Source: Lotus japonicus
Lineage: Eukaryota > Streptophyta > Magnoliopsida > Fabales > Fabaceae
Assembly: GCF_012489685.1 (NCBI RefSeq)
Contig: NC_080041.1
Span: 27,765,780-27,829,779 of the forward strand
Length of the DNA: 64,000 nt
Reading direction: 5' to 3'
Under the pieces are notes generated by a model, which ran no database searches, was not told the DNA's origin, and saw nothing but the letters and a program-made list of their open reading frames with translations. Positions 23,048-50,885 of the stretch are shown here, one piece after another; position 1 is the stretch's first letter; every line of letters starts with the position of its first letter. Both the position numbers and the translations under genes were made by a program.

Positions 23048-26000
23048 TGTAAGACCCGGATTTTCGGAACAAGTTAATTTCCGACTCACGCGTGGAATCA
23101 GTGTAAGTGTGACAGGAGTTTGATATTTGAGAAAGATTAATGAAGAAGAAAGTTCAGGAATTGCTCGAGGAATGTGGCGTTGTTTCTTTCGGAGCTAGTG
23201 CGAGTCGTCTGCACACCTGCCTTATGGCGAGCATGTCCAGAATAGGCTAATTTCGCTTTTAAAGCAATGTTTAGGCGATATTTCGAATTCTTGGAAAATT
23301 TAAAGATTCTCTTTATTTTTCCTTCGACCAGCATTTCATTTCGGAACTCTGGACTGTACGCACGATAGTATTTACTTTTCGGATGTCCGCCGACGCTAAT
23401 TTCTTTGCTTCGAAACCTTAGTTTTGAGCGAAGGATGAAGACTTTTTCTATTCGGGACTTCTAACGAAGATTCCGTCTGCGTTGCCAAACTTGTTTCGAC
23501 ATTTCCAATCTTTCTTCTGTTGGAAGTTTTGTCGTCTGAGCATCACAGCAAAAAGTAGTTTTTCGGGACAGACTAACTTACACCGCTTTTGGCGTTTTGG
23601 ATATCGTTTTTCCTAAATCTTAGATATTTGTTTTGAGTTCTGGAATTCTGACGCCAGAATCTCTCTTAGAATTCCACGGTGATCGTGCTGCAAAAATCGG
23701 AATCGCGAAATTTTCATTTTCCCGCGATTTCGCCTACCTATAAATAGCTCAAAAAGCAAAAATTCCTTCATTTACTTCCTATTGTGGCTGAATTTCGTGG
23801 AGAGCAAGGGGGGAGGAGATTTTCGCGAAAACTTGACCAATCTTCGCGCAGTTCGTCCCTACTTCTAGGTATCGAGGTAACTAACACGATTCCTACCTCT
23901 GATTGTTGTTTCTGTTGCGTTTTTGAAGTCGTTTCTGTGCTCACAGTTTTGAGCTTTTTCTAAAATTGTCCGTTTTCTTCGATTTCTTGCTTGGGTTATG
24001 TTCTCTAGGTTCCCATGAGTCTAAAACCTCTGTCAGTAAACGCTGATTGTGATCCAGTTGTCCAGGATCTGAAAAACTGTTTCAAAACCCTTTTTGTCTC
24101 ACATTTCGAAACTTTATTGTCGAAAAGACTTAATCTGACTTCGTGCCTTTAGGATTTGTTGTCACGGATGTCATGAGGATCATTGCTGTCAAATTTGTTT
24201 TCAGAACTGATAACTTTGAAGTTTTGAGCCTTTATTTTGGACCAAAATGCCCCTGGATAGTTGTATTTCGGCCCGATTGTCCGAAAATTGTTCCGACAGT
24301 TTCTTTGCCTTAGTTTTACCCTAAAACTACCTTGTGAATTGATTTGATCGAAGAAAAAGAGCCGAAGCCCTTTTCTCCTTATGGCCGTGGGCTATTTCCT
24401 AAGGGGGGGGAGTTTTTCGTTTTCGAAAACTTGTCCTTTCATACCCGATTGTCGTATTCTGAAGCTTTAATGCTTTGTCTATCGTTTATGTATTGTTTTG
24501 CGATCGAACTAATCGATTTTGTTTGGTTTCTGCTTTGTTTTCCTCCGAGGTTCAGTTGAAGGAACTTTGGAATACTCAGAGCAATTGTTTGAGGAGAACT
24601 TTGTTTGCGAAGCTGGAACAGCTCGAGGTTAGGGCAACTTACATATATATTAGCTATGATTGCATGATAGGCGTCGATAAATTCGACTTATGCTTTGCTA
24701 TGATATTGATTATGATGATGGTTTATTGTTATGAATGTTTTCATAACTTATGATGTGATGTTGTGTTGAATTGAGCGTTTTGACGCGACTTCGGAGTGGA
24801 GATTCATTGATCTGGTGATCTTTGATATTTTGGGTTGGATGAGCAACCCTAGGCAAGTCCAAATGAGGGGTTTGAGACCTAGCCTGGTTGGTATTTGTTG
24901 GTTTACTTAGACTTTCCCCGGGAAACTTCTTTTGGGTGGTTGGTTTTCGGAAAACATAGAAGGATTAGAATTTCGAAAACTAAAGACTTGGGAAACCTAG
25001 ATTTTGAGAAATAAACTCATAACCTGACTAATCTGAATTGAAATCATTTTTATTAATGTTTAAGTATAGGAAAACTGAAGGGGAAAATATTTACGAAAGA
25101 CGGGGAAAAGTCGACCTTTGTTGTGAGTTATTGGAATTGGGGAAAGCCACTAAGGTGAGCTATGGTGATGATTGAAAGTCACCGAGTACTTTACGTACTC
25201 TTGTTGATGGGGTTGTGTTGTATTGACCGACATTAATCCCTTGGGTTCTCTTGTTGTTGGAGCGGTGTTGTATTGACCGACACTTAGCGCTCTGGTTGTT
25301 TGGGCTGTGTTGTATTGACCGACACTAGACCCTTGTGTATTCTTGTTGGTGGAGCTGTGTTGTATTGACCGACACTTACTCCGAGTTGTGTTGTATTGAC
25401 CGACACTAACTCATGGGTTTGTTGAGATTGGGTTGTGAGCTAAACACTTTCGTGGTAAGGGCGATTCGTTGTTTGGCTAACCACGTTGCATTCAATCGGG
25501 TGAATAACGGGAATGGTTCACCTGTGCATATCATGGTGAATAACGGGAAAGGTTCACCTTGCATAAATGATGAATAACGGGAATGGTTCATCATATGGTG
25601 AATAACGGGAATGGTTCACCAAGGATGAATAACGGGAATGGTTCATCCAGGATGGATTTCATCCAGGATGGATAACGGGAATGGTCCATCCATAGTGAAG
25701 AACGGGAATGCTTCACTTGTGGCGAACGGGAACGCGTCACAAATCCGGATTCATATTGTGCATTTCACGCATACATTCATGCTGACTGAGACTGTGTGCT
25801 GTTTGTTTATTGAAGCAATGTTAGAGCCATAACATGCTAGGATTACTTATATGCTTATATAACAACTTATATATATACCCTGTCACATGTTGAGTGTATA
25901 TGTACTTATTGTTGTGAGTTGACCCTAGCGCCTTGGCTTTGTTTGTATGTTTGTGTTTGGGCGGTCGGCCTGCTGCCAGATGTCGATGACCGACTGGTTC

Positions 26001-26676
26001 TCGGTGGTCTCTCCCTCGGGGGGGGATCAGATATGAGCTGCAGGATCGGGATGCCTCACCGCTTGGGTGATCGATGTTGCTGGTCCCCGGGCGACGTATC
26101 GGGGAAGGGTCATGGAGGACCGGACTGACGAGCGTGGACGTCTGACGAAAGGAGTTCTATGGCGCATGGAGTTGAGCTTCAACTTGCCGACTTCAGATCG
26201 TTGTGGGTTTGGCACTGGGAGGTTAGGTTTGGGCAGGCGTCATGTTTTGTGTAGAGCTCTGATTCGTTTTGCTTTTGGGATCGGGTAGGTTTCCGACGCA
26301 TGACTTTTCGTGTGGTTCTCTTACTGAGGGATCACAGTGAGTCTGTTGGACCATAGGGGTCTTTGCTTAGGCCATATTGAGGCCGACTTTCTCCTAGTGG
26401 TTTGTAATTATAATTTTCTCACTTACACTTCTGGGTCTGTATATATTTGCCTACGGGCACACTGCTTTGGAGTCACTGCGAGTGCGCGTGACATGGAGTG
26501 CAGCTGAGGCTGTACACGTATATATGTTGTATATCTGTTAGTTTAGTAGTTGGGTTTTGTCTTTACTTCCTTATCGTTTTGATTTAAAGGAAAGAAAACG
26601 AAAAAAAAATTACCTGTTTTCCGCGTAAAGATTATTTTTGGTTACTAAAGTGACACCTGGAAATCGGGGTGTTACA
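23048..26676 (+). repeat. Chromovirus 5' LTR
   Basis: TGTAAGACCCGG to CGGGGTGTTACA. TATA box TATAAATA is at 23739-23746. Hairpin arrays lie at 25205-25411 (five gaccgacac units) and 25498-25742 (aacgggaatg units). Confidence 0.93.
25205..25742 (+). repeat. Hairpin arrays in 5' LTR
   Basis: First array: five gtgttgtattgaccgacac-type units. Second array from 25498: aacgggaatg-loop units. One unit has GGATGGA (25666-25672) paired with TCCATCC (25685-25691), where neighbours have GGATGAA with TTCATCC: two arms, two matching changes. Another pairs GTGAAG (25695-25700) with CTTCAC (25711-25716). Confidence 0.87.
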
Positions 26677-26679
26677 TTG

Positions 26680-26691
26680 TGGTATCAGAGC
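26680..26691 (+). promoter_or_regulatory. Chromovirus primer binding site (initiator Met-tRNA)
   Basis: TGGTATCAGAGC begins three bases after the 5' LTR. Confidence 0.93.
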
Positions 26692-26848
26692 TTAGTCGAG
26701 TCTTTTGGGAGTCTTTGGGGAATAGGTCTTCTGTGCTAGGTTGTGTGACACTGCAAAGAGTGAAAATTGATTGTCTGCAGAGCGATTTTCGCTCTAATTG
26801 TTTGCGTTACTACTTAATCGGATTGAGTGGTTTGTCTAGTGCTACCGT

Positions 26849-27671
26849 ATGGCTAGTACTAATCAGACGTTTGATGAGATATAGGATGGTGGACCTTAAC
26901 CGGATGGCGGAGGCAATAGCTACACTGATCGAGGCAATGATGAACCAGGCTGCGGAAGACGCTTATATGCGCGCTGAAGAGGCTGCACGTGAGCATCACC
27001 AACGATTGATGGCGACGGCGATGTATCAACAAAGAGGAATGAACCGAACAGGAGCTGGGGGACCAATAAGGTCAGGATCTCAAGGCTACAACAGAAGGGA
27101 GAGCTACCATCAGTGGGGACCGTATCAGCGTTTCAAGGGAAGAGATCTTATCTCAAGAGTCTACAAACCAACGACTGCTGATACTGGAGGGGAGCCAGTT
27201 GGTGACAAAGGTGTGACATGTACTCGTTGTGGAAAGTTTGGGCATTTTGCTAACAAGTGCTCAGTGACTGGACGGAGATGCTTCAAGTGTAACTGAGAGG
27301 GGCATCTAGCTGTGAACTGCAAGACACCCCAGGAGGAAACGTCTGATAGTAAGATGAAAGGGAATGATGCTACCGAAGGGACAGGAAACAAGACTTCGGG
27401 AAGAGCAGTGACGTGTTACAGGTGCAGGGAAGTAGGGCACTATGCTAGTAAGTGCAAGATCAAGGGAAAACTATGCTTTAATTGCAACCAACCGGGACAT
27501 TTCTCCAGAGATTGTAAGGCACTCAAGGGCGAATCATCAAGGAATGTTGGGAAAGGAAAACAACTTGCTACAGAGGAAAGGATTCATATCAAGGAAGGAG
27601 CAAGAGTTGAGGAGTCGAACGAGGAAGAACGTGGGAACGATGGTAATATTTTAACTGTTCTTTTATTCTAG
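26849..27671 (+). pseudogene. gag: Chromovirus gag, capsid-deleted, with four zinc knuckles
   Basis: A likely original start is ATG at 26849 (MASTNQTFDEI, then a TAG). The frame used downstream is the one open from 26679. An acidic N-terminal helix (RMAEAIATLIEAMMNQ) runs into LMATAMYQQRGMNR, skipping the capsid domain normally found there. Four CX2CX4HX4C knuckles follow: CTRCGKFGHFANKC, CFKCN-stop-EGHLAVNC (TGA at 27294-27296), CYRCREVGHYASKC and CFNCNQPGHFSRDC. They form two tandem pairs. Only a nucleic-acid-binding remnant survives; the internal stop splits the second knuckle. Confidence 0.82.
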
Positions 27672-29970
27672 AATAACTTACTCTTTTCTCTTCGAAGCGA
27701 GTGTGACGCGCCTAACTTGTATTTACGACCTAGACTATGATCTTATGATTATTATCCCTAGTAGGACCTTATTCGAAGTTGCTCGTGTTTTAACTATAGG
27801 AGTTACACGAGGTTGGGAATAGCACACTAAGTCTAGAAAGTAGCCTTCCACCGATGCGATTATGAGGAAGCTAGTAGCTGAAGAACGAATCTTAGGGAGA
27901 TTCCGTATGGGTAGTATACGTGTCATGTTGAGGGTGTGTAGTTCCGTAGCGGGATCATTAAAGGATTTAGTATCAGGATATTTGTGACTACTGGAGGATA
28001 GGAACTCATTGACTGTTCCAGTGGGTTTTTCTAAATTTCCACCTTCGATGTATTAGGCCTGATCAACCTAATATTGAGGGGGTGATATTCGGAATCACGG
28101 CTGGTTATGGACTTTGATAGAAGGACGGGTAAGATGAATTTGAATTGATTGAGGATTAGTCGGATTTGGGAGGAAAGTTCGTGTTAAGCATTTGATTGTA
28201 AAAGATTAAGATTTGAATCTGTGGAAGTCGATGAGTGTCGTATAGACATTGATTGGTTAGTTCGTGTGATTACTCCAAGTAGAGGTAGACCAAGTCAAGA
28301 GATTTAGTGCTGGAAAAGTATTAAGTAGTTTCTCGGAAGTTATGAAGTCATAGGTTATGTGATTGCTGAGGGGAGTTGTTAGAGACTAAATAAGTTGGAT
28401 TTAATCAGGTTTTAGATGATAGCTTGATGGTAGCGAGATTGAGAAGAATTAACTCTGAACTAGATTGTTATAGTCGAGTTCGAGGAATAAGTTTTGCTAA
28501 GCGTTGGATTAATATGTGGAGACATTATAGTCTTAAGAGATGAATTTTCGCTTGAAAAGTGTTGAATTAATGATTAAGTTGGAGAAAGAAAGTTTTAGCA
28601 TAAGTTGAATACTTGAGGTTGTTGATATGGATTCCAAAGAAATATGCTAAGATTACTAAGTGAGATTTACTAAGTTGGATTGAAATCTTAGGGTTAAGAT
28701 TGAATCTTGAGAGTCGAGAATCGCGTACGAATAGGAGATCTTATGGTTGTAGGTGTGACAATAGGAGTTGAATCTTAGAAGATTGAAGACCTGAAGGTGA
28801 GCTTCGGGTTAAGACCATTGAGGTATAATATAAGAGAGATCTTGAAGTAAAGGAATTCTGGGTTGTGTGGAGTGTTAAGGTTGGTGATCGATTGATGTTG
28901 ATTATGAGGTTGCGGACATAATGACCATGTGACAAGATTTGAATGATGTTAGCATAATAAGTTGTGAATGTGAAAGCATGACGCCACTGGTCAGGTCGTT
29001 TGGGTAAGTGAAGGAGTTATAGTTTTTAAGAAACGGATATTCATTTAAGAAGTATTGAAGGATTAAAGGTCACTAGAGGACCAAACTTGGTGAAGGTTTA
29101 GGTTTTAAATCTATGAATGTCTGTCTAAGGTGTGTAAGACTCGAAGGTTGTCAGAATTTGATTGAGAGATTAAGAAGTTGATTGACGAGATGGTGATTGA
29201 GTCACAAAAAGGAAGGTGTTAGTATTAAGATGAATACCTGAGGTTGTTATATTTTGACGAGTTTCGTAGAGTATAAGAGTCAATGGGACTTTGTTATGGA
29301 TTTTGATGATGAATATTACGGGTAACAAGTGAATTTTACTAAAGTTGAATGAGAATCCTAGGGCTAAGATTGACCTAGTGAGTTGAGATTCATGTACACA
29401 TAAGAGATTTAGTGGTGTTAGCGGCTACGATAACAGTTAAATCTCAGAATGTTGAAGGATCGGATGATAAAATGGCTAGTTAAGTCCCTTGAGGTATAGT
29501 TATGATTTAATCTTCTAGAGGATAAGTCTCGATTTGTGCGAAGTGTTAGGGATTTCAGTAAGTGTAAATAGGTTTGAGTGAGGGAAGTTTTGAGGAAGAA
29601 GACGATAATAATGGATTGTTAGGTATTAAGAGGAGGATTATCTTATAAGTTGTTGATAAATTGATGTTGAAGGGGATAAGATTAGTGAAGGACAAGAAAT
29701 AAGGACATAAGTCGAGCTTTAATTCGAATAGTGACTAAGTAGAAGTGTGATTTCTTGGTGTGTGTAAAGATAGTTACGAAGTTAGAGGTGTTTTAATGGA
29801 CTAGCGGTTTCCAAGGGGGAGGATTCGTCTAGGAGTTATCGAACGAACAAGTGGAGTTTTGGACTGTAGATGAAGATCACGAGGACAAGTTGAGTATCTA
29901 CTTTGAGATGACAGAGAGGCACCGAGTTTAAGAAGGATTTCGGATGACCGACAGTAAAAAAAAAAAAAAC
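27672..29970. other. Non-coding interior of the chromovirus, with diverged ~0.65-kb repeats
   Basis: There is no protease, RT or RNase H and no ORF above about 65 codons. Purine-rich sequence shows old direct repetition: the stretch around 28580-28850 (tgaggttgttgat, cctagggytaagattg-type, ccattgaggtataat) recurs at about 29230-29500 in the same order. It is identified only as retroelement filler. Confidence 0.6.
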
Positions 29971-29974
29971 AAGT

Positions 29975-30245
29975 GGCTAAGATTGAGCGACTGCACGGAG
30001 TGCCAACCGGTATCATTTCAAGCAGAGATCCGACGCAAGTGATCGAGCCAGACGACATGAAGTTGAATGATGGTTTGTCTTTTGAGACACCGACAGTTAG
30101 CAGTGGGGATAGAAGAGTGAAACAGTTAAGGGGAAAACAGCTTGCTTAAGTAAAGGTTATGAGGAACAATGACACGGGCAATGCTACATGGGAATTGGAA
30201 GACCAGATCAAGGAACTGTATTCCGGAATTTTCTCAGAACTCTGA
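29975..30245 (+). pseudogene. Integrase C-terminal remnant with internal deletion
   Basis: Minimal integrase core (RLHGVPTGIISSRD) passes directly into the C-terminal domain (DPTQVIEPDDMKLNDGLSF, DRRVKQLRGKQL, VKVMRNNDTGNATWELE, IKELYSGIF). In intact chromoviruses the core DRDPRF and the tail DPTHV lie more than 200 residues apart; here they are joined at a shared GATCC-type DP codon pair. One stop (TAA, about 30147) is internal. The Trp-Glu motif near the end supports a Tekay/Del-type origin. Confidence 0.75.
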
Positions 30246-30265
30246 GTTTCGAGGACGAAACTTTC

Positions 30266-30283
30266 TTTTTGGATGGGAGTATT
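30266..30283 (+). promoter_or_regulatory. Polypurine-tract region of the chromovirus
   Basis: After cgaggacgaaactttc the sequence ttttggatgggagtat abuts the 3' LTR. Position and G-rich purine run match the plus-strand primer site of this lineage. Confidence 0.65.
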
Positions 30284-33200
30284 GTAAGACCCGGATTTTC
30301 GGAACAAGTTAATTTCCGACTCACGCGTGGAATCAGTGTAAGTGTGACAGGAGTTTGATATTTGAGAAAGATTAATGAAGAAGAAAGTTCAGGAATTGCT
30401 CGAGGAATGTGGCGTTGTTTCTTTCGGAGCTAGTGCGAGTCGTCTGCACATTTGCCTTATGGCGAGCATGTCCAGAATAGGCTAATTTCGCTTTTAAAGC
30501 AATGTTTAGGCGATATTTCGAATTCTTGGAAAATTTAAAGATTCTCTTTATTTTTCCTTCGACCAGCATTTCATTTCGGAACTCTGGACTGTACGCACGA
30601 TAGTATTTACTTTTCGGATGTCCGCCGACGCTAATTTCTTTGCTTCGAAACCTTAGTTTTGAGCGAAGGATGAAGACTTTTTCTATTCGGGACTTCTAAC
30701 GAAGATTCCGTCCGCGTTGCCAAACTTGTTTCGACATTTCCAATCTTTCTTCTGTTGGAAGTTTTGTCGTCTGAGCATCACAGCAAAAAGTAGTTTTTCG
30801 GGACAGACTAACTTACACCGCTTTTGGCGTTTTGGATATCGTTTTTCCTAAATCTTAGATATTTGTTTTGAGTTCTGGAATTCTGACGCCATAATCTCTC
30901 TTAGAATTCCACGGTGATCGTGCTGCAAAAATCGGAATCGCGAAATTTTCATTTTCCCGCGATTTCGCCTGCCTATAAATAGCTCAAAAAGCAAAAATTC
31001 CTTCATTTTCTTCCTATTGTGGCTGAATTTCGTGGAGAGCAAAGGGGGAGGAGATTTTCGCGAAAACTTGACCAATCTTCGCGCAGTTCGTCCCTACTTC
31101 TAGGTATCGAGGTAACTAACACGATTCCTACCTCTGATTGTTGTTTCTGTTGCGTTTTTGAAGTCGTTTCTGTGCTCACAGTTTTGAGCTTTTTCTAAAA
31201 TTGTCCGTTTTCTTCGATTTCTTGCTTGGGTTATGTTCTCTAGGTTCCCATGAGTCTAAAACCTCTGTCAGTAAACGCTGATTGTGATCCAGTTGTCCAG
31301 GATCTGAAAAACTGTTTCAAAACCCTTTTTGTCTCACATTTCGAAACTTTATTGTCGAAAAGACTTAATCTGACTTCGTGCCTTTAGGATTTGTTGTCAC
31401 GGATGTCATGAGGATCATTGCTGTCAAATTTGTTTTCAGAACTGATAACTTTGAAGTTTTGAGCCTTTATTTTGGACCAAAATGCCCCTGGATAGTTGTA
31501 TTTCGGCCCGATTGTCCGAAAATTGTTCCGACAGTTTCTTTGCCTTAGTTTTACCCTAAAACTACCTTGTGAATTGATTTGATCGAAGAAAAAGAGCCGA
31601 AGCCCTTTTCTCCTTATGGCCGTGGGTTATTTCCTAAGGGGGGGGGGAGTTTTTCGTTTTCGAAAACTTGTCCTTTCATACCCGATTGTCGTATTCTGAA
31701 GCTTTAATGCTTTGTCTATCGTTTATGTATTGTTTTGCGATCGAACTAATCGATTTTGTTTGGTTTCTGCTTTGTTTTCCTCCGAGGTTCAGTTGAAGGA
31801 ACTTTGGAATACTCAGAGCAATTGTTTGAGGAGAACTTTGTTTGCGAAGCTGGAACAGCTCGAGATTAGGGCAACTTACATATATATTAGCTATGATTGC
31901 ATGATAGGCGTCGATAAATTCGACTTATGCTTTGCTATGATATTGATTATGATGATGGTTTATTGTTATGAATGTTTTCATAACTTATGATGTGATGTTG
32001 TGTTGAATTGAGCGTTTTGACGCGACTTCGGAGTGGAGATTCATTGATCTGGTGATCTTTGATATTTTGGGTTGGATGAGCAACCCTAGGCAAGTCCAAA
32101 TGAGGGGTTTGAGACCTAGCCTGGTTGGTATTTGTTGGTTTACTTAGACTTTCCCCGGGAAACTTCTTTTGGGTGGTTGGTTTTCGGAAAACATAGAAGG
32201 ATTAGAATTTCGAAAACTAAAGACTTGGGAAACCTAGATTTTGAGAAATAAACTCATAACCTGACTAATCTGAATTGAAATCATTTTTATTAATGTTTAA
32301 GTATAGGAAAACTGAAGGGGAAAATATTTACGAAAGACGGGGAAAAGTCGACCTTTGTTGTGAGTTATTGGAATTGGGGAAAGCCACTAAGGTGAGCTAT
32401 GGTGATGATTGAAAGTCACCGAGTACTTTACGTACTCTTGTTGATGGGGTTGTGTTGTATTGACCGACATTAATCCCTTGGGTTCTCTTGTTGTTGGAGC
32501 GGTGTTGTATTGACCGACACTTAGCGCTCTTGTTGTTTGGGCTATGTTGTATTGACCGACACTAGACCCTTGTGTATTCTTGTTGGTGGAGCTGTGTTGT
32601 ATTGACCGACACTTACTCCGAGTTGTGTTGTATTGACCGACACTAACTCATGGGTTTGTTGAGATTGGGTTGTGAGCTAAACACTTTCGTGGTAAGGGCG
32701 ATTCGTTGTTTGGCTAACCACGTTGCATTCAATCGGGTGAATAACGGGAATGGTTCACCTGTGCATATCATGGTGAATAACGGGAATGGTTCACCTTGCA
32801 TAAATGATGAATAACGGGAATGGTTCATCATATGGTGAATAACGGGAATGGTTCACCAAGGATGAATAACGGGAATGGTTCATCCAGGATGGATTTCATC
32901 CAGGATGGATAACGGGAATGGTCCATCCATAGTGAAGAACGGGAATGCTTCACTTGTGGCGAACGGGAACGCGTCACAAATCCGGATTCATATTGTGCAT
33001 TTCACGCATACATTCATGCTGACTGAGACTGTGTGCTGTTTGTTTATTGAAGCAATGTTAGAGCCATAACATGCTAGGATTACTTATATGCTTATATAAC
33101 AACTTATATATATACCCTGTCACATGTTGAGTGTATATGTACTTATTGCTGTGAGTTGACCCTAGCGCCTTGGCTTTGTTTGTATGTTTGTGTTTGGGCG

Positions 33201-33912
33201 GTCGGCCTGCTGCCAGATGTCGATGGCCGACTGGTTCTCGGTGGTCTCTCCCTCGGGGGGGATCAGATATGAGCTGCAGGATCGGGATGCCTCACCGCTT
33301 GGGTGATCGATGTTGCTGGTCACCAGGCGACGTATCGGGGAAGGGTCATGGAGGACCGGACTGACGAGCGTGGACGTCTGACGAAAGGAGTTCTATGGCG
33401 CATGGAGTTGAGCTTCAACTTGCCGACTTCAGATCGTTGTGGGTTTGGCACTGGGAGGTTAGGTTTGGGCAGGCGTCATGTTTTGTGTAGAGCTCTGATT
33501 CGTTTTACTTTTGGGATCGGGTAGGTTTCCGACGCATGACTTTTCGTGTGGTTCTCTTACTGAGGGATCACAGTGAGTCAGTTGGACCATAGGGGTCTTT
33601 TCTTAGGCCATATTGAGGCCGACTTTCTCCTAGTGGTTTGTAATTATAATTTTCTCACTTACACTTCTGGGTCTGTATATATTTGCCTACGGGCACACTG
33701 CTTTGGAGTCACTGCGAGTGCGCGTGACATGGAGTGCAGCTGAGGCTGTACACGTATATATGTTGTATATCTGTTAGTTTAGTAGTTGGGTTTTGTCTTT
33801 ACTTCCTTATCGTTTTGATTTAAAGGAAAGAAAACGAAAAAAAAATTACCTGTTTTCCGCGTAAAGATTATTTTTGGTTACTAAAGTGACACCTGGAAAT
33901 CGGGGTGTTACA
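30284..33912 (+). repeat. Chromovirus 3' LTR
   Basis: Same length and termini as the 5' LTR. TATA box is at 30974-30981. Hairpin arrays at about 32442-32648 and 32735-32979 have the same unit number as the 5' LTR. Confidence 0.93.
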
Positions 33913-33917
33913 TTTAC

Positions 33918-34739
33918 AAAGAATTTGCTTCTGAAAAGCTAATAGTAAACACAATGAATTCAGATGAAAGAATGCTTAGAAGGTTTGAATATATCTTGCG
34001 CGTATGAGATTCTTCCAACCGCATCTTTCAATCTTCAGCCTCTATTTATACTCCAAGGATTAGGGTTTGAACGCTGCATGGGAATGCTACCGTTAGAGGG
34101 CATTTCTAGAAATTCCAGCTTCTGCTGTGGCTGAGAATGTTAGGTAGGTCATCAGGATAGTACATTTGCTTTTGTACTTGGATAGTGACTTGACCTTTAA
34201 ACCTAGTAGACTTCTGATCAGGGGAATGCTTCATGTTGGAACTTGTGAAGCTCGTTGATCAGAGTCAGAGGGAAGCAGAGATCCTCTGACCGTTGTATCT
34301 TCTGATTCTGAACTCAGAGGGAAGTACATGGTCTTCACAGTCATCTTGCTTCTGGACTTCAGAGTTTCCACTTTTCAGCTTCTGGATCTTCAGAGTCTTC
34401 TACACCATCAGAACATCTGAACCTTCCGAGTGTCTGGGTTGTCAGAACGTCTGCATCTTCAGAACTTCAAGTGACTGAGTCCATATCAGAGCTTGTGTGA
34501 CTTCAGATATTCTGAAGTGTTTCTACTGTTCAGAGTGAACATAGATGTTGCGAAAGCGTTGCTTGGGTCACTCTTTATGCACAGTGCTTCTGATTTGTGT
34601 GAGATAAAATTGAGGTTAGAGCCTGTAAATAGCACACTCAGAAAAACACGTTAGAGTACCATAATTGTTCATACTAAAATGTTAACTTGTAATCATCAAA
34701 ACATAGAGTTGTACTACTCGATCAAAACTTGATCTTACA
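33918..34739 (-). repeat. SIRE 3' LTR, distal part
   Basis: Continuation of 22781-23047 after the chromovirus and one TSD copy. On plus it ends gatcttaca, the reverse of TGTAAGATC. It is rich in TCAGA/TCTGA motifs between about 34217 and 34540, as are the other two SIRE LTRs here. Confidence 0.9.
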
Positions 34740-34740
34740 A

Positions 34741-34753
34741 TCTCCCCCTTTTT
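34741..34753 (-). promoter_or_regulatory. SIRE polypurine tract
   Basis: The minus strand reads AAAAAGGGGGAGA immediately before TGTAAGATC. The same tract adjoins the second SIRE copy at 63785. Confidence 0.88.
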
Positions 34754-35376
34754 GATGATGACAAAACCAAGTATTTTGATGAACAATTCTTAAACAATAA
34801 ACTGAATTCACTCAGAGTTTAGAGATATAGAATTAGACTTATCCTGATGTGAATAGTTTATTTTGCTCATTCTGAATCCAAGTCACAGCTTGATTCTGAG
34901 CATAGCTCCCCCTGAATCTAAGATTTAATGAAAACGTTAGACATGTCTAGATTCTGAGCTAAATAATATAAGAGTTCAGAGTGAAGGCGCATGACATAGA
35001 TGAAATAAAATAATCAGAGCACATAAGTATTCAGAGTCACAAGCAGGGTATCAGAGTCAAATAGAATCACTTCAGAAGAAGTGAAATGTATTCCTTGTAT
35101 TTGCCCAGTGACACATCTATGGTCATAAAGGTGGAACTCTTAAATTCTCCAAAAGAAAAATAAATCACACTAACACAGCTTACACATCAAAAACAGGTTT
35201 GTACTCCCCCTTTTTGTCATAAGCAAAAAGTATGGGGTGTGAAAAACGTAGCTTGAAGTACAAGGTACTCCCCCTTAGAGAAGGTCTAAGTTTCAAAACG
35301 ATATGGAGAAATAAACGATGCATGAATGAGAGTTAAGCGAATTAAAGAAGGGAGTTAATGGAAAAGAAGAACGTTT
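34754..35376. other. SIRE 3' non-coding region
   Basis: No ORF is visible. The first ~200 bp recur in the second SIRE copy at 63790-64000 (gatgacaaaac, cattctgaat, agctccccctgaatcta). It separates the LTR from the antisense gene module. Confidence 0.7.
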
Positions 35377-35479
35377 ACCACCGGCCACGGGAGTAAAGAA
35401 AAGCTTCAGTTACCAAGGACTTAACCTCGAGAAACTGTAGGAGCAATAACTTCCAAGGAGAGAGTGAAGCTTATATAAA
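35377..35479 (+). promoter_or_regulatory. Promoter of the antisense module in SIRE (copy A)
   Basis: Plus strand, opposite to the element. Motifs: ACCACCGGCC (35377-35386), CCTCGAGAAACTGT (35425-35438), AGCAATAACTTCC (35442-35454) and TATATAAA (35472-35479). TATA lies 52 bp before the ATG. The last three motifs recur with identical 17- and 30-bp offsets upstream of the homologous ORF at 53942 (minus). Confidence 0.75.
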
Positions 35480-35530
35480 GCGAGTAAGAAGAGGGTAAGC
35501 TTCACAACAAGATTAATACCATAAAAAGAT

Positions 35531-35878
35531 ATGGCTTCATACATGGTTACACTGGAAGAGCTCAGAAGGAAAGCCTTCGAGGAAGACATGTTCCTTAACA
35601 TCCGGCACCCTGATGGTACACGAACGATACAAGAGCTGACGAAGACATTGCTTGAAGAAGATCTTGGTCCAGAGCTGGAGAAAGATCTGAGAGAATTCCT
35701 CGGTTTCGTGGAGGAAATTCAGGAACACAGCCAGCTGGAACTGAACTTTCTAGAAGAGAAGGAGTCAGTGGAAAGAAGAGTCAAGACTATAGAAGATAGT
35801 CTGGAGAGGACCGAGCTGAGCATCAAGCTTGGCAATATAGAGTATACGCTTGATCGGCTGGAGAAGGAAAGAGCATAG
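35531..35878 (+). CDS. Antisense small protein ORF in SIRE (module copy A)
   Basis: An intact 115-residue ORF on the strand opposite the element, between its env-like ORF and 3' LTR. The start is fixed by the TATA box 52 bp upstream and by the shared MASY start of copy B. The product is acidic and largely helical: LEELRRKAFEEDMF, a middle LLEEDLGPELEKDLREF, FVEEIQE, then a coiled-coil-like tail ending in RLEKERA. No signal peptide or membrane segment is seen. It is about 50% identical to the minus-strand ORF at 53942-53634 in a Gypsy relic. A polyadenylation-like AATAAA is near 35966. Family and function are not recognised. The conserved promoter, ORF and 3' UTR argue for a captured gene. Confidence 0.72.
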   Translation: MASYMVTLEELRRKAFEEDMFLNIRHPDGTRTIQELTKTLLEEDLGPELEKDLREFLGFVEEIQEHSQLELNFLEEKESVERRVKTIEDSLERTELSIKLGNIEYTLDRLEKERA

Positions 35879-35996
35879 CAACGCCGGGAGTGCAGAAGAA
35901 TGAGGAAGGATCCTCCATTCTAGATTTAGGAAAGAATGTATGATGTAATGATTATGAATTATCATGAATAAAGAAAAAAAATTTGCAAACACAATG

Positions 35997-36038
<42 letters not shown>
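35997..36038. repeat. (AT)n microsatellite
   Basis: About 20 uninterrupted AT units lie between the antisense ORF and the env-like ORF. Confidence 0.9.
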
Positions 36039-36041
<3 letters not shown>

Positions 36042-36292
36042 GTGAGAAACAACGAGTAAGCAAAATATAGCAAATAATGCAAATAAAAATAAAAGTAAAA
36101 TAAGTTAAGAAAGAAAAACGAAAGAAATCCTAAAAGCTAGGGCTTGTCAGAGCGACGCAGAAGTTCTTTAAGAGCTCGATTCATTTCCATCAGCAGAATC
36201 TCATGAGAGTTGAGACAGTGTTCCATGATGTCAAGTCTGGAAGAACATGGCTGTGTAGAGGTAGAGCGAACATTCTGAGCAGAGTGAGGAGC

Positions 36293-38976
36293 TTAAGTGG
36301 AATCAGAATCATCATGAGTTAAAGGCACTGGTGCAAGAGCTTGACATCTAAGAGCTTCAGCTTCAGCTTGTAGTCTCTCAGCTTCTAATCTTGCATTTTC
36401 AGCTTGTGCAGCCTCTTGACGTGCAACTTCTTCTGCTTTCTCTTTCTTTCTTCTTGCTTCTTCAATAGCTTCAAGTAACTTAGTTCTTTGTTGTTGTTCA
36501 TGCATAACAACTCTTCTGTTAAACTGCTGATTGACAGCCTCAATCCTCTGATCCATTTCCGCAGTGAGATGACTCATCATAACAGGAACTTGAGCAACTA
36601 ACCAAGTGCTCAGACGATTCCATTCTTCAGCAATAGAGTCAGAGTTCTCACTAAGGTCAGTGTAACCTTGCACATTGCGAATCATCAGTGAAGCTTCATG
36701 ATTAAAGACACTGACGCACTCAAGAAGAGAATTTGGCTTGAGGTAGGTGTAGGGAACAATGGAGAGATTGGTTTCAGGAGAGGTGGGCTGGTTGCTGCTA
36801 TTTGCCTCAGATACACCTTGAGGAGAACCAACATCAAAAGTTTGGACATTTGGTTCAGAGGTTTCAAGGTTTGGTTCAGAGGTTTCAACCTGAGGGTGTG
36901 GTGATCTAACCGAAGAGTAGTTAGACACTGAGTGTTCTGGTTCTGGTTGAATGAGTTCTTGTTGAACTTGGTCTGGTTGAACTTATTGAGCTAAAGGGTC
37001 TACTTCATGTAAAGGGTCAGCATGAATAGGATGATCTGGGTCAACTAGATGTTCTGGTCTAGGTCTAGGGTATCTCCTAGGGCTAGGTATTGTGAGGTAG
37101 TACTCTGGAATAGCAGACTCTTTCTCTTTCGATTAGATTCAGAGTTGTTTGAGGGTGAAGAGTCAGCGACATTGGTAGGAAATGATACAGAAGTATAGGG
37201 AGTTGAGGAATCTGTATCAGTGGTTCGACGAACAGGACGTTCTGAAGCTCTGGGGACAGAGTGATCAGAAGGTCTGGGTTCAGGTTCTGGTTGGTGGAGA
37301 ATAATGGGTTCAGAGGTTAGTGGGTTGTATTGAATGGTTATGGGTGAGGTTGGTTTAGAGGGACGTGGAGTCTGAAGCATGTTCCAAAGAGGTGCATCTT
37401 GTTGGGAAGGTTGGAAAAATGAAGATCTAGGTGAATTTGGTGGAGAAGTGGGTTGGTCAGCTGGTTGAGACTCTCGGACAGGAGTGAGTTGGGTGGCTGT
37501 GCGGTTAAGGAGTGTAGAGATGGGGAGTGCATCAAGCGAATTTACATCATCATCAGATTCAGTAACAGCAGACTTACTGGATGATCGCACGGCAGACCGA
37601 GTAACTCTGGCAGAAGTCTCCATTCTGATAACTTGAGCAGCTGGTTCCACACGAGTTGGCTTCTCCACAATTCTAACTTGCTTCTTTTTCTTCTTAGGAG
37701 GAGGAGCATCACCATCATCACCATCAGATGGAGCATCTGGTTTGGTGGGTTCCTCGTCCTTCCTCTTGGATTTTTCAGGCTTTCTCTTCTTCTAATCATC
37801 AGACTCTTCAGAAGATTCCTCCAAGACCATTTTTCTCTGAGCTTTCTTCTTGGGAGGAGAGTCAAACTCTGGAGCTGGTGGCAATTTTCTGAAGAACTCG
37901 TCCACATCTATCTCATACCCTTGTTGCCTCAGATCATTAATGTAACACAGGATTGCACTCGGATTATCTGCTTGAGACCACAGAGGGTAATCATTCAGAG
38001 TCACCCTTCTTTGTCTTACTTCATCAGAAGTATCTTCATGAGCAGGGGCAACCTTCTTCTTGATCAATCCCATCTTCTTCAAAGATGTGGATGTGAAGAC
38101 ATCACTAACAATTGTTGACAGATCCTCTGTGCATCCTGCCTGGATCAGATCTTCTTTGAATTTGCTCTCAATGGAGTGGTCTGAAAGCAGTCTCCCAAAA
38201 GGGATGTACTTGATAGCAGACTTGATGGAGGCAGTGGTTCTGGATTTCCTGATACACTCTTTTAGGTAAGAGTACAGGAAGAAAGGAAGGCAGATCTTTC
38301 TATGATCCTGAATGAAGAACAGCATCGCCTTCTGACAGAAGTTGATGTAATCAGGAGAGCTTCCCTTTGGCCTCTGGTTGATGCAGTGAAGCAAAATCTT
38401 GTGTCAGACCCTTAGCTTGGGATGAAGATCCACCACTTTGTAGTCACTCTTGCCAGGTTTGTAGTTGGTGTAAAGAGCCTTGTTGGTTTCTTCCTTTGTT
38501 CTGGGTTTCAACTTTGATTCCGTCAATTGGAATCTATACCCAGTTCCAGTGTGTGCCCCCAAAAGGTCAACAATTGACTTCTCAGTAATGATTATCCTCC
38601 TTTCAGCAATGTGAGAAACCACATGTGTGTCATCGCAGTCGGCATGTTTCCTGAATTCCTTAACCAATTTGTCATAGATTGGACCTCGAAGCCTGTTGAA
38701 ATATTCTTCCCAGCCTTGAACATGAACTTCAGGACGAAGATCATACCCATTAGCAACTATATTATCCAGGTCGAATCTCCATTCAGCAAGCACCTGGAGT
38801 TCTTCCGGAGCAAAAACACAGTGAACGACACAGCCCCGTTCTACAATTGGAATCATCTTCTCTTGAGCTTGACCTTGACTTTGAGTTTCAGGACCTGATT
38901 GACCTGTAGCTTGGCCTACTACCATAGTAGGAAATCTGGTTACATCTGCAGTTTCACGTCTGTTGGGTCTAACCAT
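36293..38976 (-). pseudogene. SIRE env-like ORF, broken
   Basis: A reading frame of about 890 codons runs from ATG at 38976 (MVRPNRRE). The N-terminal half has GWEEYFNRLRGPIYDKLVKEF, RRIIITEKSIVDLLG and WSQADNPSAILCYIN, resembling the plant transposon domain found in 3' ORFs of several plant retroelements. A Lys/Ser/Pro-rich middle follows, then a C-terminal coiled coil of Ala/Glu/Arg (about 36320-36500). Breaks: TGA at 38404-38406, TAG at 37792-37794, a frameshift near 37100, and TAA at 36982-36984. No signal peptide or transmembrane helix is evident, so 'env-like' is a positional name; any envelope role is unproven. Confidence 0.8.
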
Positions 38977-39412
38977 CTTGAAGGCGGTTGAAGGTTTTGG
39001 GTAGAAAGGAGAAGGATGAATAGAGAGAGAGAGAGAGATCCTGGGGATGAGGTTTTGAAAAACTGAAGAGAGATAAGGTAAAACCGTAAGTGTAGGAGAA
39101 CGTGTGTGTATAGTGGGTTTTTGAAAATAACTGTTGTGGATCAAAAAGCAATTTAAAATCAACGGTTAAAAATTAAAGACATCATAGTAACAGTTAATAC
39201 ACATATCACACGCAGGAGAGAAGCACATCAACACTCATTACGACAGACTGTCAGCACGGGCACAAGGAATTATGTATCAGAGATACTGACACACGTTTAC
39301 TGTCTCAGCTTCAGAGTCAGCACCAATGGGTACATAAAGTCTGATAGAGTTACCTTCTGGACTAGACATCTTCTGATAAAGAAGTATCATAGCCAGACGT
39401 TCTGATCCATCT
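38977..39412 (-). other. Spacer between SIRE pol and env-like ORF
   Basis: No recognised coding sequence. It contains a (GA)n run at about 39021-39038 and a pyrimidine-rich leader (minus) before the env-like ATG. A splice acceptor could lie here, but none is certain. Confidence 0.5.
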
Positions 39413-42400
39413 TCATGCTGGACAAAAGTCCATATTCAGATTTTTCAGGATGAAATTAAATATATCCTCTGCTAAGGGCTTTGTAAAGATATCTGCCCAT
39501 TGATGGTCAGTATCAACAAACTTCAGAAGAAGTACGCCCTTCTGTACATAATCTCTAATAAAATGATACTTTACCTCAATGTGCTTTGCCCTTGAATGTA
39601 AGATAGGATTCTTGCTCAATGAAATTGCAGCAGTGTTATCACAATAGATTGGGATATTGCTTTCAAGGATTTGATAATCCTCCAGCTGATGTTTCATCAA
39701 GAGCATCTGAGTGCTGCATATTGCTTCTGAGATATATTCTGCCTTTACAGTAGATAGTGCAATGGTTGATTGCCTCTTGCTTGCCCATGAGACTAAGTTG
39801 CTTCCCAGAAATTGACAATTTCCATAAGTGCTTTTTCTCTCTGTTCTATCTCCAGCATAATCAGCATCACAATAACCTGAAAGCTTATACTCTGATGTTT
39901 TCTTATACATCAAGCCAAGGTTAGTGGTACCTTTCAGATATCTTAGGATCCTCTTAACAGCAGTTAAGTGGGTTTCCCTCAGATCTGATTGGAAACGAGC
40001 ACATAAATGAACACTAAACAATATATCTGGCCTAGATGCAGTTAAGTGTAGAAGTGATCCTATCATACCACGATAGAGCTTCTGAAAAACTTTGCCACTT
40101 GCATCTTCTTTCTCCAGAATGCATGTAGGATGCATTGGAGTCTTGGCAACTGTAGATTCCAGCATATTGAACTTCTTCAGAAGTTCTTTAGTGTACTTGC
40201 TCTGATGGATATATGTTCCTTATGGTGTTTGATCAACTTATATTCCCAGAAAGTACTTGAGTTCTCCCATCATACATATCTCAAATTCAGCCTGCATCAT
40301 CTCAGAAAATTCTTTGCATAGAGATTGATTAAAAGAACCAAATATAATATCATCAACATAAATTTGCACAATTAAGATATCATCTTTGTAAGTTTTGCAA
40401 AAGAGAGTTGTATCTACTTTACCCCTTACAAACTCATTCTCCAGAAGGAATGAGCTGAGTCTCTCATACCATGCTCTGGGAGCTTGCTTCAGACCATAAA
40501 GAGATTTCTTCAGCTTGAAGACATGGTCTGGGTTCTTCTCATCCTCAAAACCTGGGGGTTGATGAACTTAGACTTCCTCTGATATGTATCCATTTAGGAA
40601 GGCACTCTTAACGTCCATCTGATGTAGAATTATGTTGTGATTCACTGAGAAGGAGATCAGCAGTCTGATTGATTCTAGTCTTGCTACTGGAGCAAATGTT
40701 TCAGTGTAGTCTATTCCTTCCTGCTGACTGTAGCCTTGAGCAACTAGCCTTGCCTTGTTTCTGACTACATCACCTTTCTCATTCAACTTGTTTCTGAACA
40801 CCCATTTGGTTCCAATTACATGGACACTTTGAGGTTTCTTCACTAGGCTCCAAACATCATTTTTGGAAAATTGATTCAATTCTTCTTCCATAGCCAGAAT
40901 CCAGTCCTTGTCCTGAAGAGCTTCATCAATTGACTTGGGTTCAATTGAGGACACCAATCCTTTCAGACTAAGCAGGGTCTCTTCAGAGGGTCTGAAGGCT
41001 GATCTGGTTCTGACTGGTTCGTCTTTGTTGCCCAGAATCAATTCCTTAGGATGAGCTGCAGTGATTCTGCTCTTCTTCTGAGGTTGTGAATCAGAGGGAC
41101 CAGCTTCTTCTGGTTCATCTTCCTCTGGCTCAGCTTCCTCTGGAGCTTTGCCTTTGTCAGAAACATTTATACTTAGATCTGCAAATTTCTCAACTAGCTT
41201 TGACTGGTCAGCGCCAAGCTTATCGTCAAATCTAACATGAATAGATTCTTCAATTGTTTTAGCATCAGTGTTATAGAATCTGAAACCTTTAGATCTCTCA
41301 AAGTAACCAAGTAATAGACATTTAGACGATTTAGCATCAAACTTATGCAATCTATCCTTAGTGTTAAGAACATAACATACACAACCAAAAGGATGAAAGT
41401 AAAAAATGTTGGGTTTTATATTCTTCCACAATTCATAGGGAGTCTTATTCAGAATTGAACTCACAGAGATTCTGTTCTGAATGTAACACGCTGTGTTTAC
41501 TGCCTCTGCCCAAAAGTTCTTAGTCATGCCAGTTTCTTGGAGCATGGTTCTAGCAATCTCCTGAAGAGTTCTGTTCTTCCTCTCAACAACACCATTTTGT
41601 TGAGGAGTTCTAGGACAAGAGATATCATGTGCAATTCCATAGGAATCAAACAGACTCTCAAACTTGTCATTCTCAAACTCTCCACCATGGTCACTTCTGA
41701 CACGCACAATTCTACAAGCCTTCTCGTTTTGCACTTGGGCTATGAAGGTAGAGAACACAGCATGAGACTCATCCTTGCGGGTTAGATATTTTACCCATGT
41801 CCAGCGGCTATAGTCGTCAACAATGACCATCCCATATCTCTTGCCACCTATAGACTCAGTTTTCACTGGTCCAAACAGGTCGATATGCAGAAGTTCCAAC
41901 GGCCTTGAGGTTGAGACAACATTCTTTGCCTTGAAAGGGACTTTTGTGAATTTGTCTTTCTGACATGCTTCACAAAGAGCGTCTGAAGAGAACTTCAGAG
42001 TGGGTAAGCCCCTGACAAGGTTTAGCTTACTCAGCTGAGAAATCTTTCTCATACTGGCATGCCCTAACCGTCTATGCCATACCCATTGCTCTTTATTAAC
42101 AGACAGAAAGAACTTCACATTCTGAGCCTCCAACTCAAATAATCTGATCTTATAAATGTTGTTCTTCCTCTTGCTGTTAAACAGAACAGAGCCATCGATC
42201 TGACTTACAGCCCGGCAGAACTTTTGATTGAAGATAACATCATAACCCTTGTCAGCTAATTGACTTATAGACAATAAGTTATAAGTTAAGATGTCTACCA
42301 ATGAAACATTGTCAATGCATGGACTACTATCTACACAAATAGTACCAGTACCAACAATTTTACCCTTTTTGTTGCCACCAAAGCCAACTTCGCCTCCAGG

Positions 42401-44237
42401 CTTAAGTTTTAGCTCTTGGAACATACGCCTTTCTCCCGTCATGTGACGCGAGCATCCACTGTCCAGATACAATGATTGGTGTTTCAGTGGAGCTATAAGG
42501 ATTTCCGCAACATAGATAATCGTATCCTTAGGTACCCACTTTCTGGGTCCTCTCTTGTTAGATACCCAGAGGTTCTGATCACCTTGGGTTTCTCAACATG
42601 GTAATGTAAAGGAATTTTTGCATGATATTTAGACATGGAGAAAGATCCCTTTTTGAGAGGGGGTTTAGCAACTTCAGCCGGTAAAGGATCAGGTAATATG
42701 GTACCAGAGGGAACAAAGCATTCATAAAAAGATTTAGCTTCAGGCATAGAAGGCTCATTTCTAATTGGTTTAGAATAGCCAATGCCATGCATTCCATTTC
42801 TGCTTACGCCATAGATCATTGAAGCCATTAAGCTTCTGTCTATGCTTTTAGCCAGGAATCTTTGAAAAGATTTTTCATACTTAGATTCATGCTTACTATC
42901 AGAGGCATCGCAGGCAATAACTTCTTCTAACTTAGCAATTTGATTCTTAAGCACAGAGTTAGAATTCACTAAAGCATGGTTATCATTTTTCAAATCAGAA
43001 ATGATTTTCTCATGTTCAGAAGGAGTCTTAGAAACAACAGATAAGTTCTTTTTCAACTTTTTATGCTTAGACAATAAAGAGTTATACTTATCCATGATAT
43101 CAGACAAAGCATGTTTCAGTACAGAGGTTGAGAAAGAAGCGAATACCTCATTTTCATCGTCTGACTTAGAATCTCCTTCTGATTCTGAGTCAGAGTCAAC
43201 AGCATCCTTTGACTCTGCTCCTTTGTCTTTGACAATAGCCATGAGTCCTTGGACTTCACCATCAGAGTCAACATCCTGTGACTCTAATTCGTCAAAAGTC
43301 ACCGTCAGACTTTTCTTGGTCTTGAAGTGCTTCTTTGGCCTCTTGTCCTTCTTCAACTTTGGACAGTCACTTTTGTAGTGACCCTGATTCTTTGCACTCG
43401 AAACATGTGACTTCCTTGATTGATGACTTCTTCTGGCCTGAGGATTCAGACTTTCCTTTGGCCTTTGCAGAGCCTCTGTACTTGCTTTGCTTGTGCTTCC
43501 AGATTCGGTTGAGTCTTTTAGAGATCAGAGTCAACTCATCTTCATCAGAATCTTCTGATGCTTCTTCAGATTCTTCTGCTTCAGCTTGGAGACCTTTTGA
43601 CTTCTCAGCTTTAGCCTTCTCAGATTTGGATTTCAAGGCTATTGACTTCTTCCTCAGATCTTGCATCTCTGAGCGCTTCAGCTCATGACACTTCAGTATG
43701 CTGATGAGTTCTTCTAAACTCATACGCTCAACATCTCTCGTAAGCTCTGTTGAAGTCTCCAAGGGCATCCAGCTTTCAGGAAGACTTCTGATGACCCTTA
43801 TGACATGATCTTTTGTGTAGCTCTTGTTGAGAGGTCGTATTCCAGCTACAAGCAACTGAAATCTAGAGAACATTTCTTCAATGGACTCGTTTGGCTCCAT
43901 GAGACATCTTCAGGGATTCAAAGATTCCCTTAGTAAACTCACGATCTGTAATCTTCTGGTACTCTTCATAAGAGATAGCACTTAGAAGAATTGCTCTAGC
44001 TTTGTGATGTTGTGACTAAAGCTTCTTTTGATCTGCAGTCATCTCTGACCTTGGGATCTTCTTGCCTTCTGCATCAACCGGACGCTCATAGCCATCCACA
44101 ATAATATCCCAGAGATCTGCATCGAAACCCAGAAAGAAACTTTCAAGTCTATCTTTCCAATACTCGAACCTTTGACCGTCGAACATGCGAGGCTTTGCAT
44201 TGTAACCATCTTTTTGCGTTTCACTGGTGGTAGCCAT
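39413..44237 (-). pseudogene. gag-pol: SIRE gag-pol polyprotein pseudogene
   Basis: Starts MATTSETQKDGYN at 44237. In order: Copia gag (FDGQRFEYWKDRL), a zinc knuckle near 43385, an acidic/coiled gag tail, protease LDSGCSRHMTG (~42465), integrase with HRRLGHAS and CEACQKDKF zinc residues and D-D-E (LHIDLFGP, VRSDHGGEF, NGVVERKNRT), RT (MDVKSAFLNG, YVDDIIFG near 40350-40370) and RNase H (GYCDADYAGD), ending at 39413. Breaks: TAG at 44016-44018; a deletion with frameshift near 43895; an extra C in 43382-43384 that splits the knuckle; a shift near 42565; TAA at 40565-40567, 40238-40240 and 40220-40222. The catalytic motifs are intact, so decay is fairly recent. Confidence 0.93.
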
Positions 44238-44295
44238 TGTTTTTCACACCGGCCCGGATCATTGAACACTGTTAGGTGTGGTAATCAGAACTTGC

Positions 44296-44307
44296 GCTCT
44301 GATACCA
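44296..44307 (-). promoter_or_regulatory. SIRE primer binding site (initiator Met-tRNA)
   Basis: The minus strand reads TGGTATCAGAGC, two bases inside the 5' LTR. Confidence 0.92.
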
Positions 44308-44309
44308 AT

Positions 44310-45515
44310 TGAAGGTATGAAAAATGGTAGAAAGGGGGGGGGGTTTTAAATAACGTTTTCAGAATAGAACTTCCACCTTAAAGATTTTAACAAATCTTTC
44401 GAGAACAAAGTGCTTAAGATAAGAGATAGAAAAGCACACAAGGATTTTATCCTGGTTCACTTGATGAATCACTCAAGCTAATCCAGTCCACCCGTTAAGG
44501 TGATTTCTTCCTTCTTAGAATGAAGGCAATCCACTAATCAGGTAAATGTTACGACTGCACTAGAAACCAACAAGTGACTAACAATACACTGACTTAGCTC
44601 ACACTAAGATTCACTCTCTTAGTCTTCTCAAGGATCCGATCAAACTTGATCTCCTAAAGGTAAATAAACAACTGTTTAAGAAAGAATGTTTACAAAGAAT
44701 TTGCTTTTGAAAAGCTAATAGTAAACACAATGAATTCAAATGAAAGAATGCTTAGAAGGTTTGAATATATCTTGCGCGTATGAGATTCTTCCAACCGCAT
44801 CTTTCAATCTTCAGCCTCTATTTATACTCCAAGGATTAGGGTTTGAACGCTTTATGGGAATGCTACCGTTGGAGGGCAGTTCTGGAAATTCCAGCTTCTA
44901 CTGTGGCTAAGAATGTTAGGTAGGTCGTCATGATAGTACATTTGCTTTTGTACTTGGATAGTGACTTGACCTTTAAACCTAGTAGACTTCTGATCAGGGG
45001 AATGCTTCATTTTGGAACTTGTGAAGCTCGTTGATCAAAGTCAGAAGGAAGCAGAGATCCTCTGACCGTTGTATCTTCTGATTCTGAACTCAGAGGGAAG
45101 TACATGGTCTTCACAGTCATCTTGCTTCTGGACTTCAGAGTTTCCACTTTTCAGCTTCTGGATCTTCAGAGTCTTCTACACCATCAGAACATCTGAACCT
45201 TCAGAGTGTCTGGGTTGTCAGAACGTCTGGATCTTCAGAACTTCAAGTGACTGAGTCCATATCAGAGCTTGTGTGACTTCAGATCTTCTGAAGCGTTTCT
45301 ACTGTTCAGAGTGAACATAGATGTTACGAAAGCGTTGCTTGGGTCACTCTTTATGCACAGTGCTTCTGATTTGTGTGAGATAAAATTGAGGTCAGAGCCT
45401 GTAAATAGCACACTCAGAAAAACACGTTAGAGTACCATAATTGTTCATACTAAAATGTTAACTTGTAATCATCAAAACATAGAGTTGTACTACTCGATCA
45501 AAACTTGATCTTACA
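44310..45515 (-). repeat. SIRE 5' LTR
   Basis: 1206 bp, TGTAAGATC to ACCTTCA on minus. It is full length compared with the 3' LTR and close to the third copy at 62578-63784. A run of about ten C (minus; G on plus at 44334-44343) near the end varies in length among the three copies. Confidence 0.92.
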
Positions 45516-47934: not shown

Positions 47935-47945
47935 GTATAGTGGTG

Positions 47946-50879: not shown

Positions 50880-50885
50880 AAAACT

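Follow-up and report, generated by a model that had tools for sequence, protein, structure and literature searches.

A homologous unit made up of a predicted promoter, an ORF and a 3′ UTR is present in two retrotransposons of different superfamilies, a Copia SIRE and a Gypsy relic, both lying in the 64-kb stretch of DNA that was analyzed (hereafter the window). The window contains two copies of this unit, one per superfamily, of which only the SIRE copy is intact. As delimited by alignments and flank tests, module A, the SIRE copy, spans positions 35373..35958 on the plus strand and comprises the whole shared unit, with upstream boxes, core promoter, ORF and 3′ UTR. Module B, the copy in the relic, is interrupted by a nested element. 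Its 5′ part, with the promoter and the ORF up to the insertion, aligns at 53604..54115 on the minus strand, and its 3′ UTR, severed from the ORF, is found at 15677..15750 on the same strand (alignments, flank tests). Sharing of a gene, promoter included, between Copia and Gypsy elements would demonstrate that antisense genes move between superfamilies and are under selection, and the two diverged copies provide material for testing the roles of the protein and of the promoter box.

Both ORFs were found where the original prediction had placed them. ORF A (35531..35878, plus strand) is an intact ORF of 115 codons inside the Copia SIRE. For ORF B (53634..53942, minus strand, 102 aa), the start and the reading frame are present as claimed, but the end is a premature stop and homology to ORF A runs on to 53604; its 102 codons therefore represent a shortened ORF. 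Homology of the two ORFs, without which the original prediction would have been refuted, is borne out by the alignment of their proteins, in which 47–49% of the residues are identical and the BLOSUM62 local score is 224, compared to a maximum of 53 among 500 shuffles. The similarity extends into the non-coding parts of the unit. The 200-bp 5′ flanks align with a score of 56 (shuffle maximum 33) and the 100-bp 3′ UTRs with a score of 41 (shuffle maximum 30), and in both cases none of 2000 dinucleotide shuffles scored as high. For the next 200 bp outward of the modules, 302 and 263 of 2000 dinucleotide shuffles were as good as the observed alignments. As this outer similarity is at shuffle level, the shared piece ends with the approximately 590 bp that correspond to one presumed transcription unit. 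Alignment of the two modules from promoter over ORF to 3′ UTR, proposed at the outset as a check, reveals homology throughout, beyond chance as judged by dinucleotide shuffles, with sharp ends. When the SIRE linker was simulated with a first-order model, 4 of 2000 runs contained an ATG ORF of at least 115 codons on the plus strand. A tblastn search of the window recovered these two modules and no third; its best further match, at 1914-2048, has 29% identity over 42–45 residues (E 0.15, or 0.04 without composition correction), lacks the MASY start that ORF A and ORF B have in common, and was taken as a chance match. Confirmed relatives of the module numbered zero in the viral_contigs and genome_contigs collections, both of which hold viral or prokaryotic DNA and have little bearing on plants. 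Besides, no known structured RNA reached the gathering threshold in 34700-36400, and no tRNA genes were detected within the 64-kb window.

The upstream region of the unit contains a series of promoter-like signals. The box ACCACCGGCCA (35377..35387, plus strand), recognized by sequence comparison, marks the outer upstream edge, and ACCACCGGCC, CCTCGAGAAACTGT and AGCAATAACTTCC are present upstream in both modules. The promoter box of module A, CCTCGAGAAACTGTnnnAGCAATAACTTCC (35425..35454, plus strand), is identical at 27 of 30 positions to its counterpart in module B (54023..54052, minus strand), identified by comparison with module A. It is followed by a TATA box, TATATAAA at 35472..35479 on the plus strand in module A and TATAAATA at 53998..54005 on the minus strand in module B. 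The distances from CCTCGAG to AGCAATAAC (17 bp) and from AGCAATAAC to the TATA box (30 bp) are identical in the two modules, and the end of the TATA box precedes the ATG by 52 bp in module A and 56 bp in module B. The words, the exact offsets and the position of the TATA box are thus as originally described. Downstream of the TATA box, at a spacing of 28 bp in module A and 27 bp in module B, both copies have the initiator-like word CTTCACA (35500..35506, plus strand, and 53978-53972, minus strand). The A of the CA in this word, in module A the predicted start site, lies 32 bp (module A) or 31 bp (module B) past the T with which the TATA box begins, approximately the spacing expected for a plant start site. 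Taken as signals in the sequence only, these elements suggest that the module has its own promoter. Two further observations concern the same region of module A. A perfect 10-nt inverted repeat (35464-35473/35496-35505) flanks its TATA box, and just past the module, at 35967-35981, an AATAAA is followed by an A-run, which could function in polyadenylation or be left over from the arrival of the unit.

The interruption of module B is caused by an LTR element of 37.8 kb at 15756..53603 (LTRs 15756-17060 and 52209-53603, TSD TCTCT), which is inserted shortly ahead of the end of ORF B and itself contains the SIRE. Its LTRs are 97.4–97.8% identical over the aligned pieces and have TG...CA ends, with TCTCT on both outer sides. 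On these features, the direct-repeat pair and everything between, SIRE included, can be read as one LTR element. Because this element splits the gene, the 3′ UTR words of module B are distant from ORF B, TAGCAACGC being located at 15747-15739 and AATGAGGA at 15724-15717, both on the minus strand. The common 3′ UTR words that had been noted are real, but in the Gypsy copy they do not directly follow ORF B. By itself AATGAGGA occurs at chance frequency (3 found vs. 3.98 expected), and it is its position that matters. When the insertion is bridged, module B can be read in parallel with module A up to a stop codon at the equivalent position, and its 3′ UTR resumes at 15750.

The carrier of module A (22781..45515, minus strand) has a TSD (CGACC), canonical ends and pol domains. 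Its right (5′) LTR is located at 44310-45515 and its left (3′) LTR, split by a nested element, at 22781-23047 and 33913-34739, all on the minus strand. The Pfam domains rve, gag_pre-integrs and RVT_2 are found at 40568-42472 on the minus strand, with integrase (rve) ahead of RT (RVT_2), which is the Copia order. Among the defining features of Sireviruses are, at the 3′ LTR, a terminal PPT, AGGGGGAG, and an AT/TG attachment site (PMC2829016). Both features occur in this element, as AAAAAGGGGGAGA at 34753-34741 is followed by a T and by the TG with which the LTR starts. Moreover, the multiple PPTs of Sireviruses are present, with three copies upstream of the 3′ LTR in 34700-36400, as are the 5′ LTR junction CA-ATTGG-TATCAGAGC and the poly-C signal near the LTR end (minus strand 44380-44260). 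Judged by its junctions, PPTs, poly-C signal and Copia pol domains, the carrier is a Sirevirus. Module A is antisense to it and lies between pol and the 3′ LTR, the placement of an antisense 3′ accessory ORF (aORF-3R) of plant LTR elements, with 634 bp between the upstream edge of the module and the 3′ LTR. The gene is directed inward, towards ORFs downstream of pol at 36293-37668. These are putatively env-like and have no Pfam match above a cut-off. A second SIRE copy starts at 62578, and the end of the window at 64000, equivalent to window position 34955 in the first copy, falls short of the position of the module. The element nested in the 3′ LTR of the SIRE (23045-33914) has LTRs of 3.6 kb that are 99.4% identical (23045-26678/30280-33914) and a TSD (TTTAC). 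Two of its internal ORFs (26679-27671) were scanned, with zinc knuckles as the main match, and the element is possibly non-autonomous. Elsewhere, a second exact copy of the primer-site word TGGTATCAGAGC is found at 1417-1406 on the minus strand, a possible trace of another Sirevirus.

The carrier of module B is a likely Tat/Retand-type Gypsy element of which only parts are recognizable. A gag domain (PF03732; 8831..9379, plus strand; E 3.3e-8, 34.1 bits, cut-off 24.1) probably belongs to the same relic as module B. Just after it, a reading with stops lies within 9950-10660 on the plus strand; we take it to be protease-like from its motif, and its ORF has no Pfam match. A TRP28-like (PF04195) gene lies in pieces in several frames at 54394..56633 on the minus strand, with a match (E 5.7e-4, 20.5 bits) under the Pfam cut-off of 26.2. 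Lastly, two LTR-like copies with purine tracts (57002-57557 and 57608-58154, plus strand, 76.8% identical) putatively represent the 3′ LTR of the relic; they stand in tandem, 50 bp apart, which is odd for a single element end. Scanning 30 of the 66 ORFs in the two arms (stop-to-stop, at least 75 aa) revealed no RT, RNase H, aRH or integrase. Gag and protease-like reading, module B and TRP28-like gene are separated by other insertions, and we assign them to one relic tentatively, on the basis of their strands and their succession. As gag, protease-like reading, LTR-like copies and purine tracts are on the plus strand and the TRP28-like gene is on the minus strand, the plus strand is the likely sense strand, in which case module B would be antisense. 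Of the original claim that the module is antisense in both elements, the part on the SIRE is confirmed directly, and the part on the relic is likely from the orientation of these neighboring features. The accompanying claim of a location near the 3′ LTR is accurate for the SIRE, but loose for the relic, where approximately 2.9 kb, including the TRP28-like antisense gene, separate module B from the putative 3′ LTR.

The two copies have diverged considerably. Over 112 codon pairs, counted with unjoined flanks and leaving out one stop codon, pN amounts to 0.287 and pS to 0.712, giving a pN/pS of 0.40 (bootstrap 0.30–0.53). The ratio is also 0.40 for the 101 codons before the premature stop, and 0.41 when the flanks are joined. 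Differences at the three codon positions number 39, 28, and 60. Only 5 of 17 comparable fourfold sites are identical, which is about chance level, compared to 27 of 30 positions in the promoter box. The probability of at least 27 identical positions out of 30 is approximately 7e-12 at 29% identity per site; at 50% per site it is 4e-6, or 8e-4 when 180 offsets are allowed for. The synonymous changes are close to saturated and were therefore not used for dating. The contrast of saturated fourfold sites with the conserved box and with the pN/pS of 0.40 shows that protein and predicted promoter were both under selective constraint at some stage of the descent that connects the two copies. A host gene or a third element could have been the site of this purifying selection. 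In addition, the LTRs of the SIRE differ by 2.4% (827 bp); with synonymous sites saturated, the module copies must have separated long before the SIRE inserted. As judged from these divergences, the two modules do not derive from a single recent local event, a statement that concerns these copies and does not extend to carriage of the gene by the SIRE family at large.

The predicted product of ORF A is a protein of 13.7 kDa with a pI of approximately 4.6, without cysteine or tryptophan, and its longest basic run counts three residues. Neither ORF A nor ORF B matched a Pfam family up to E 1, TRP28 (PF04195) included. In the AlphaFold2 model, which rests on two sequences, the protein forms a long helical hairpin (residues 46–86 and 90–114), with a best mean pLDDT of 79.7 and a range of 65.2–79.7 over five models. 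A fold search of this model against the PDB gave no matches at E ≤ 0.001, and the four sequence matches to solved structures up to E 1, of which the best (E 0.034) was a kinase chain, were taken as chance. The low pI and the lack of a long basic run make an adaptor likelier than a DNA binder, and the modeled hairpin would suit a dimerising adaptor.

Several known systems resemble the module in part. One of these, AtRE1, is a Copia element. AtRE1 and other retrotransposons are comparable to the module in that they contain an antisense promoter (cited in PMC7264820), but no common promoter-ORF unit is described for them in the accessible part of that source. Antisense promoters in retrotransposons (PMC7264820) and antisense ORFs in Retand elements (PMC11963269) are already known. 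In maize, gene23 of the Gypsy element Grande is an antisense gene between pol and the 3′ LTR with its own promoter, comparable in place and orientation to the module (PMC7264820). Compared by description, the proteins differ, as that of gene23 is said to be nuclear and ORF A has basic runs of at most three residues (PMC7264820). The antisense TRP28 (PF04195) ORFs of Retand elements occur in the same kind of place and orientation, and a TRP28-like gene adjoins module B (PMC11963269). Unlike these ORFs, ORF A and ORF B have no Pfam match. ORF A has no similarity to any of the three neighboring antisense ORF pieces tested either, and an origin from the TRP28-like gene was rejected. In 15 Gypsy families of common bean (PvRetro13 etc.), an antisense ORF2 lies opposite to pol and between pol and the 3′ LTR; some of these ORFs have an SMC domain, and with 436–849 aa in six rows they are longer than ORF A (PMC4093653). 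Two Copia families of common bean have an extra ORF in the region between pol and the 3′ LTR that encodes env-like proteins (PMC4093653). In SIRE elements, the envelope-like ORF (eORF-3′F) is also an extra ORF between pol and the 3′ LTR (PMC6317226), but it is sense; module A is antisense, with the putative env-like ORF on one side and the 3′ LTR on the other. Among the matches listed in the literature, none describes an antisense ORF or gene in a SIRE element. A large survey of extra ORFs, in which reverse-strand ORFs were distinguished, was confined to ORFs of at least 250 codons; 582 Ty1/copia elements have such extra ORFs, some of which may be reverse (PMC6317226). Because of this threshold, ORFs as short as ORF A would be missed by the survey (PMC6317226). 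Outside plants, the ORF3 types of rotifer LTR elements and Terminons are common to unlike retroelements, for which template switches were suggested; these are animal elements, and a promoter-carrying antisense unit is not among what the consulted portion describes (PMC5408684). As to a possible role, the VANC anti-silencing proteins of Arabidopsis VANDAL are trans-acting helpers encoded by an element, although VANDAL belongs to another transposon class and the likeness would be a functional analogy only (PMC10398659). In the literature, neither where the antisense genes of plant LTR elements come from nor what they do is regarded as known (PMC7264820; PMC11963269).

On balance, we favor the explanation that the module is an old antisense accessory gene from the Tat/Retand stock that has become common to a Copia lineage, probably via template switching, and that encodes a small acidic helical protein. 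Such a gene would be self-contained, with upstream boxes, a TATA box, an initiator-like word, an ORF of approximately 115 codons and a short 3′ UTR. It would have passed from the Retand-type antisense stock to a SIRE lineage through a switch of template from one genomic RNA to another, which would move the whole unit, upstream boxes and promoter included, and leave the antisense orientation unchanged. The gene's own mRNA would be without those boxes, and the homology that reaches upstream past the predicted start therefore argues against capture of that mRNA. In the element, the gene's own promoter would drive antisense transcription pointing away from the 3′ LTR, and the product may be a trans-acting, dimerising adaptor with a role in regulating element expression, silencing escape or assembly. 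More tentatively, the module may be a portable regulatory cassette, in which a trans-acting protein and a conserved promoter code are template-switched between Copia and Gypsy elements and selected, serving as a helper or sensor of element activity across superfamilies. A possible though doubtful alternative is a very old gene that was exchanged anciently and then descended vertically and separately in SIRE and Tat elements, with no recent transfer. This differs from the favored explanation in timing only, so that the odds of the two overlap. Saturated synonymous divergence, set against the 2.4% divergence of the SIRE LTRs, fits ancient inheritance, but the same data would fit if the SIRE had gained the gene recently from another, diverged Tat family.

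An origin by one or two captures of a small host gene, comparable to retroviral transduction, would explain the likeness of the copies by one host gene or gene family. Capture would account for a segment that is sized like a transcription unit, with promoter and sharp ends, and selection at the protein level might be that of the host gene. We nevertheless consider it unlikely, as two captures would each need an antisense landing in the same region; the missing Pfam matches of the ORFs also speak against it, weakly. It is similarly improbable that the module in the SIRE is a chance fragment of another Tat element without a role there. Only one SIRE copy can be examined, since the other one in the window ends before the module, but the segment in common has the size of a gene, terminates with the transcription unit and is bordered on either side by 200 bp unlike the Gypsy relic; moreover, the carrier has a TSD and canonical ends, and ORF A is intact. 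The least probable of these alternatives holds that the antisense promoter matters rather than the protein, with antisense RNA limiting the element through double-stranded RNA or collision with the sense transcript. Such a role, discussed for antisense ORFs in PMC7264820, would agree with a promoter box that is better conserved than fourfold sites, but the pN/pS of 0.40 and the distribution of differences over codon positions indicate that the protein itself is constrained. A DNA transposon origin was rejected, as no terminal inverted repeats were seen at the ends of module A among the best 25 of 26 inverted pairs in 35300-36060, which comprise an AT run, the 10-nt repeat that flanks the TATA box, and internal pairs.

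Other repeats and elements are found in the window. An inverted pair of approximately 2.5 kb (4165-6593/10651-13125) is 78% identical, and parts of it are 65–68% identical to the 3.6-kb LTRs of the element nested in the SIRE 3′ LTR and to a relative at 18584-22281. A 435-bp unit is duplicated in tandem at 58895-59767 (99%), and the neighboring segment 58155-59020 is repeated at 60541-61409 (94.8%). Lastly, a plus-strand ORF at 47107-47547 matches Transposase_32 (PF20167) with an E-value of 1.3e-7 and 32.1 bits, below the cut-off of 45.
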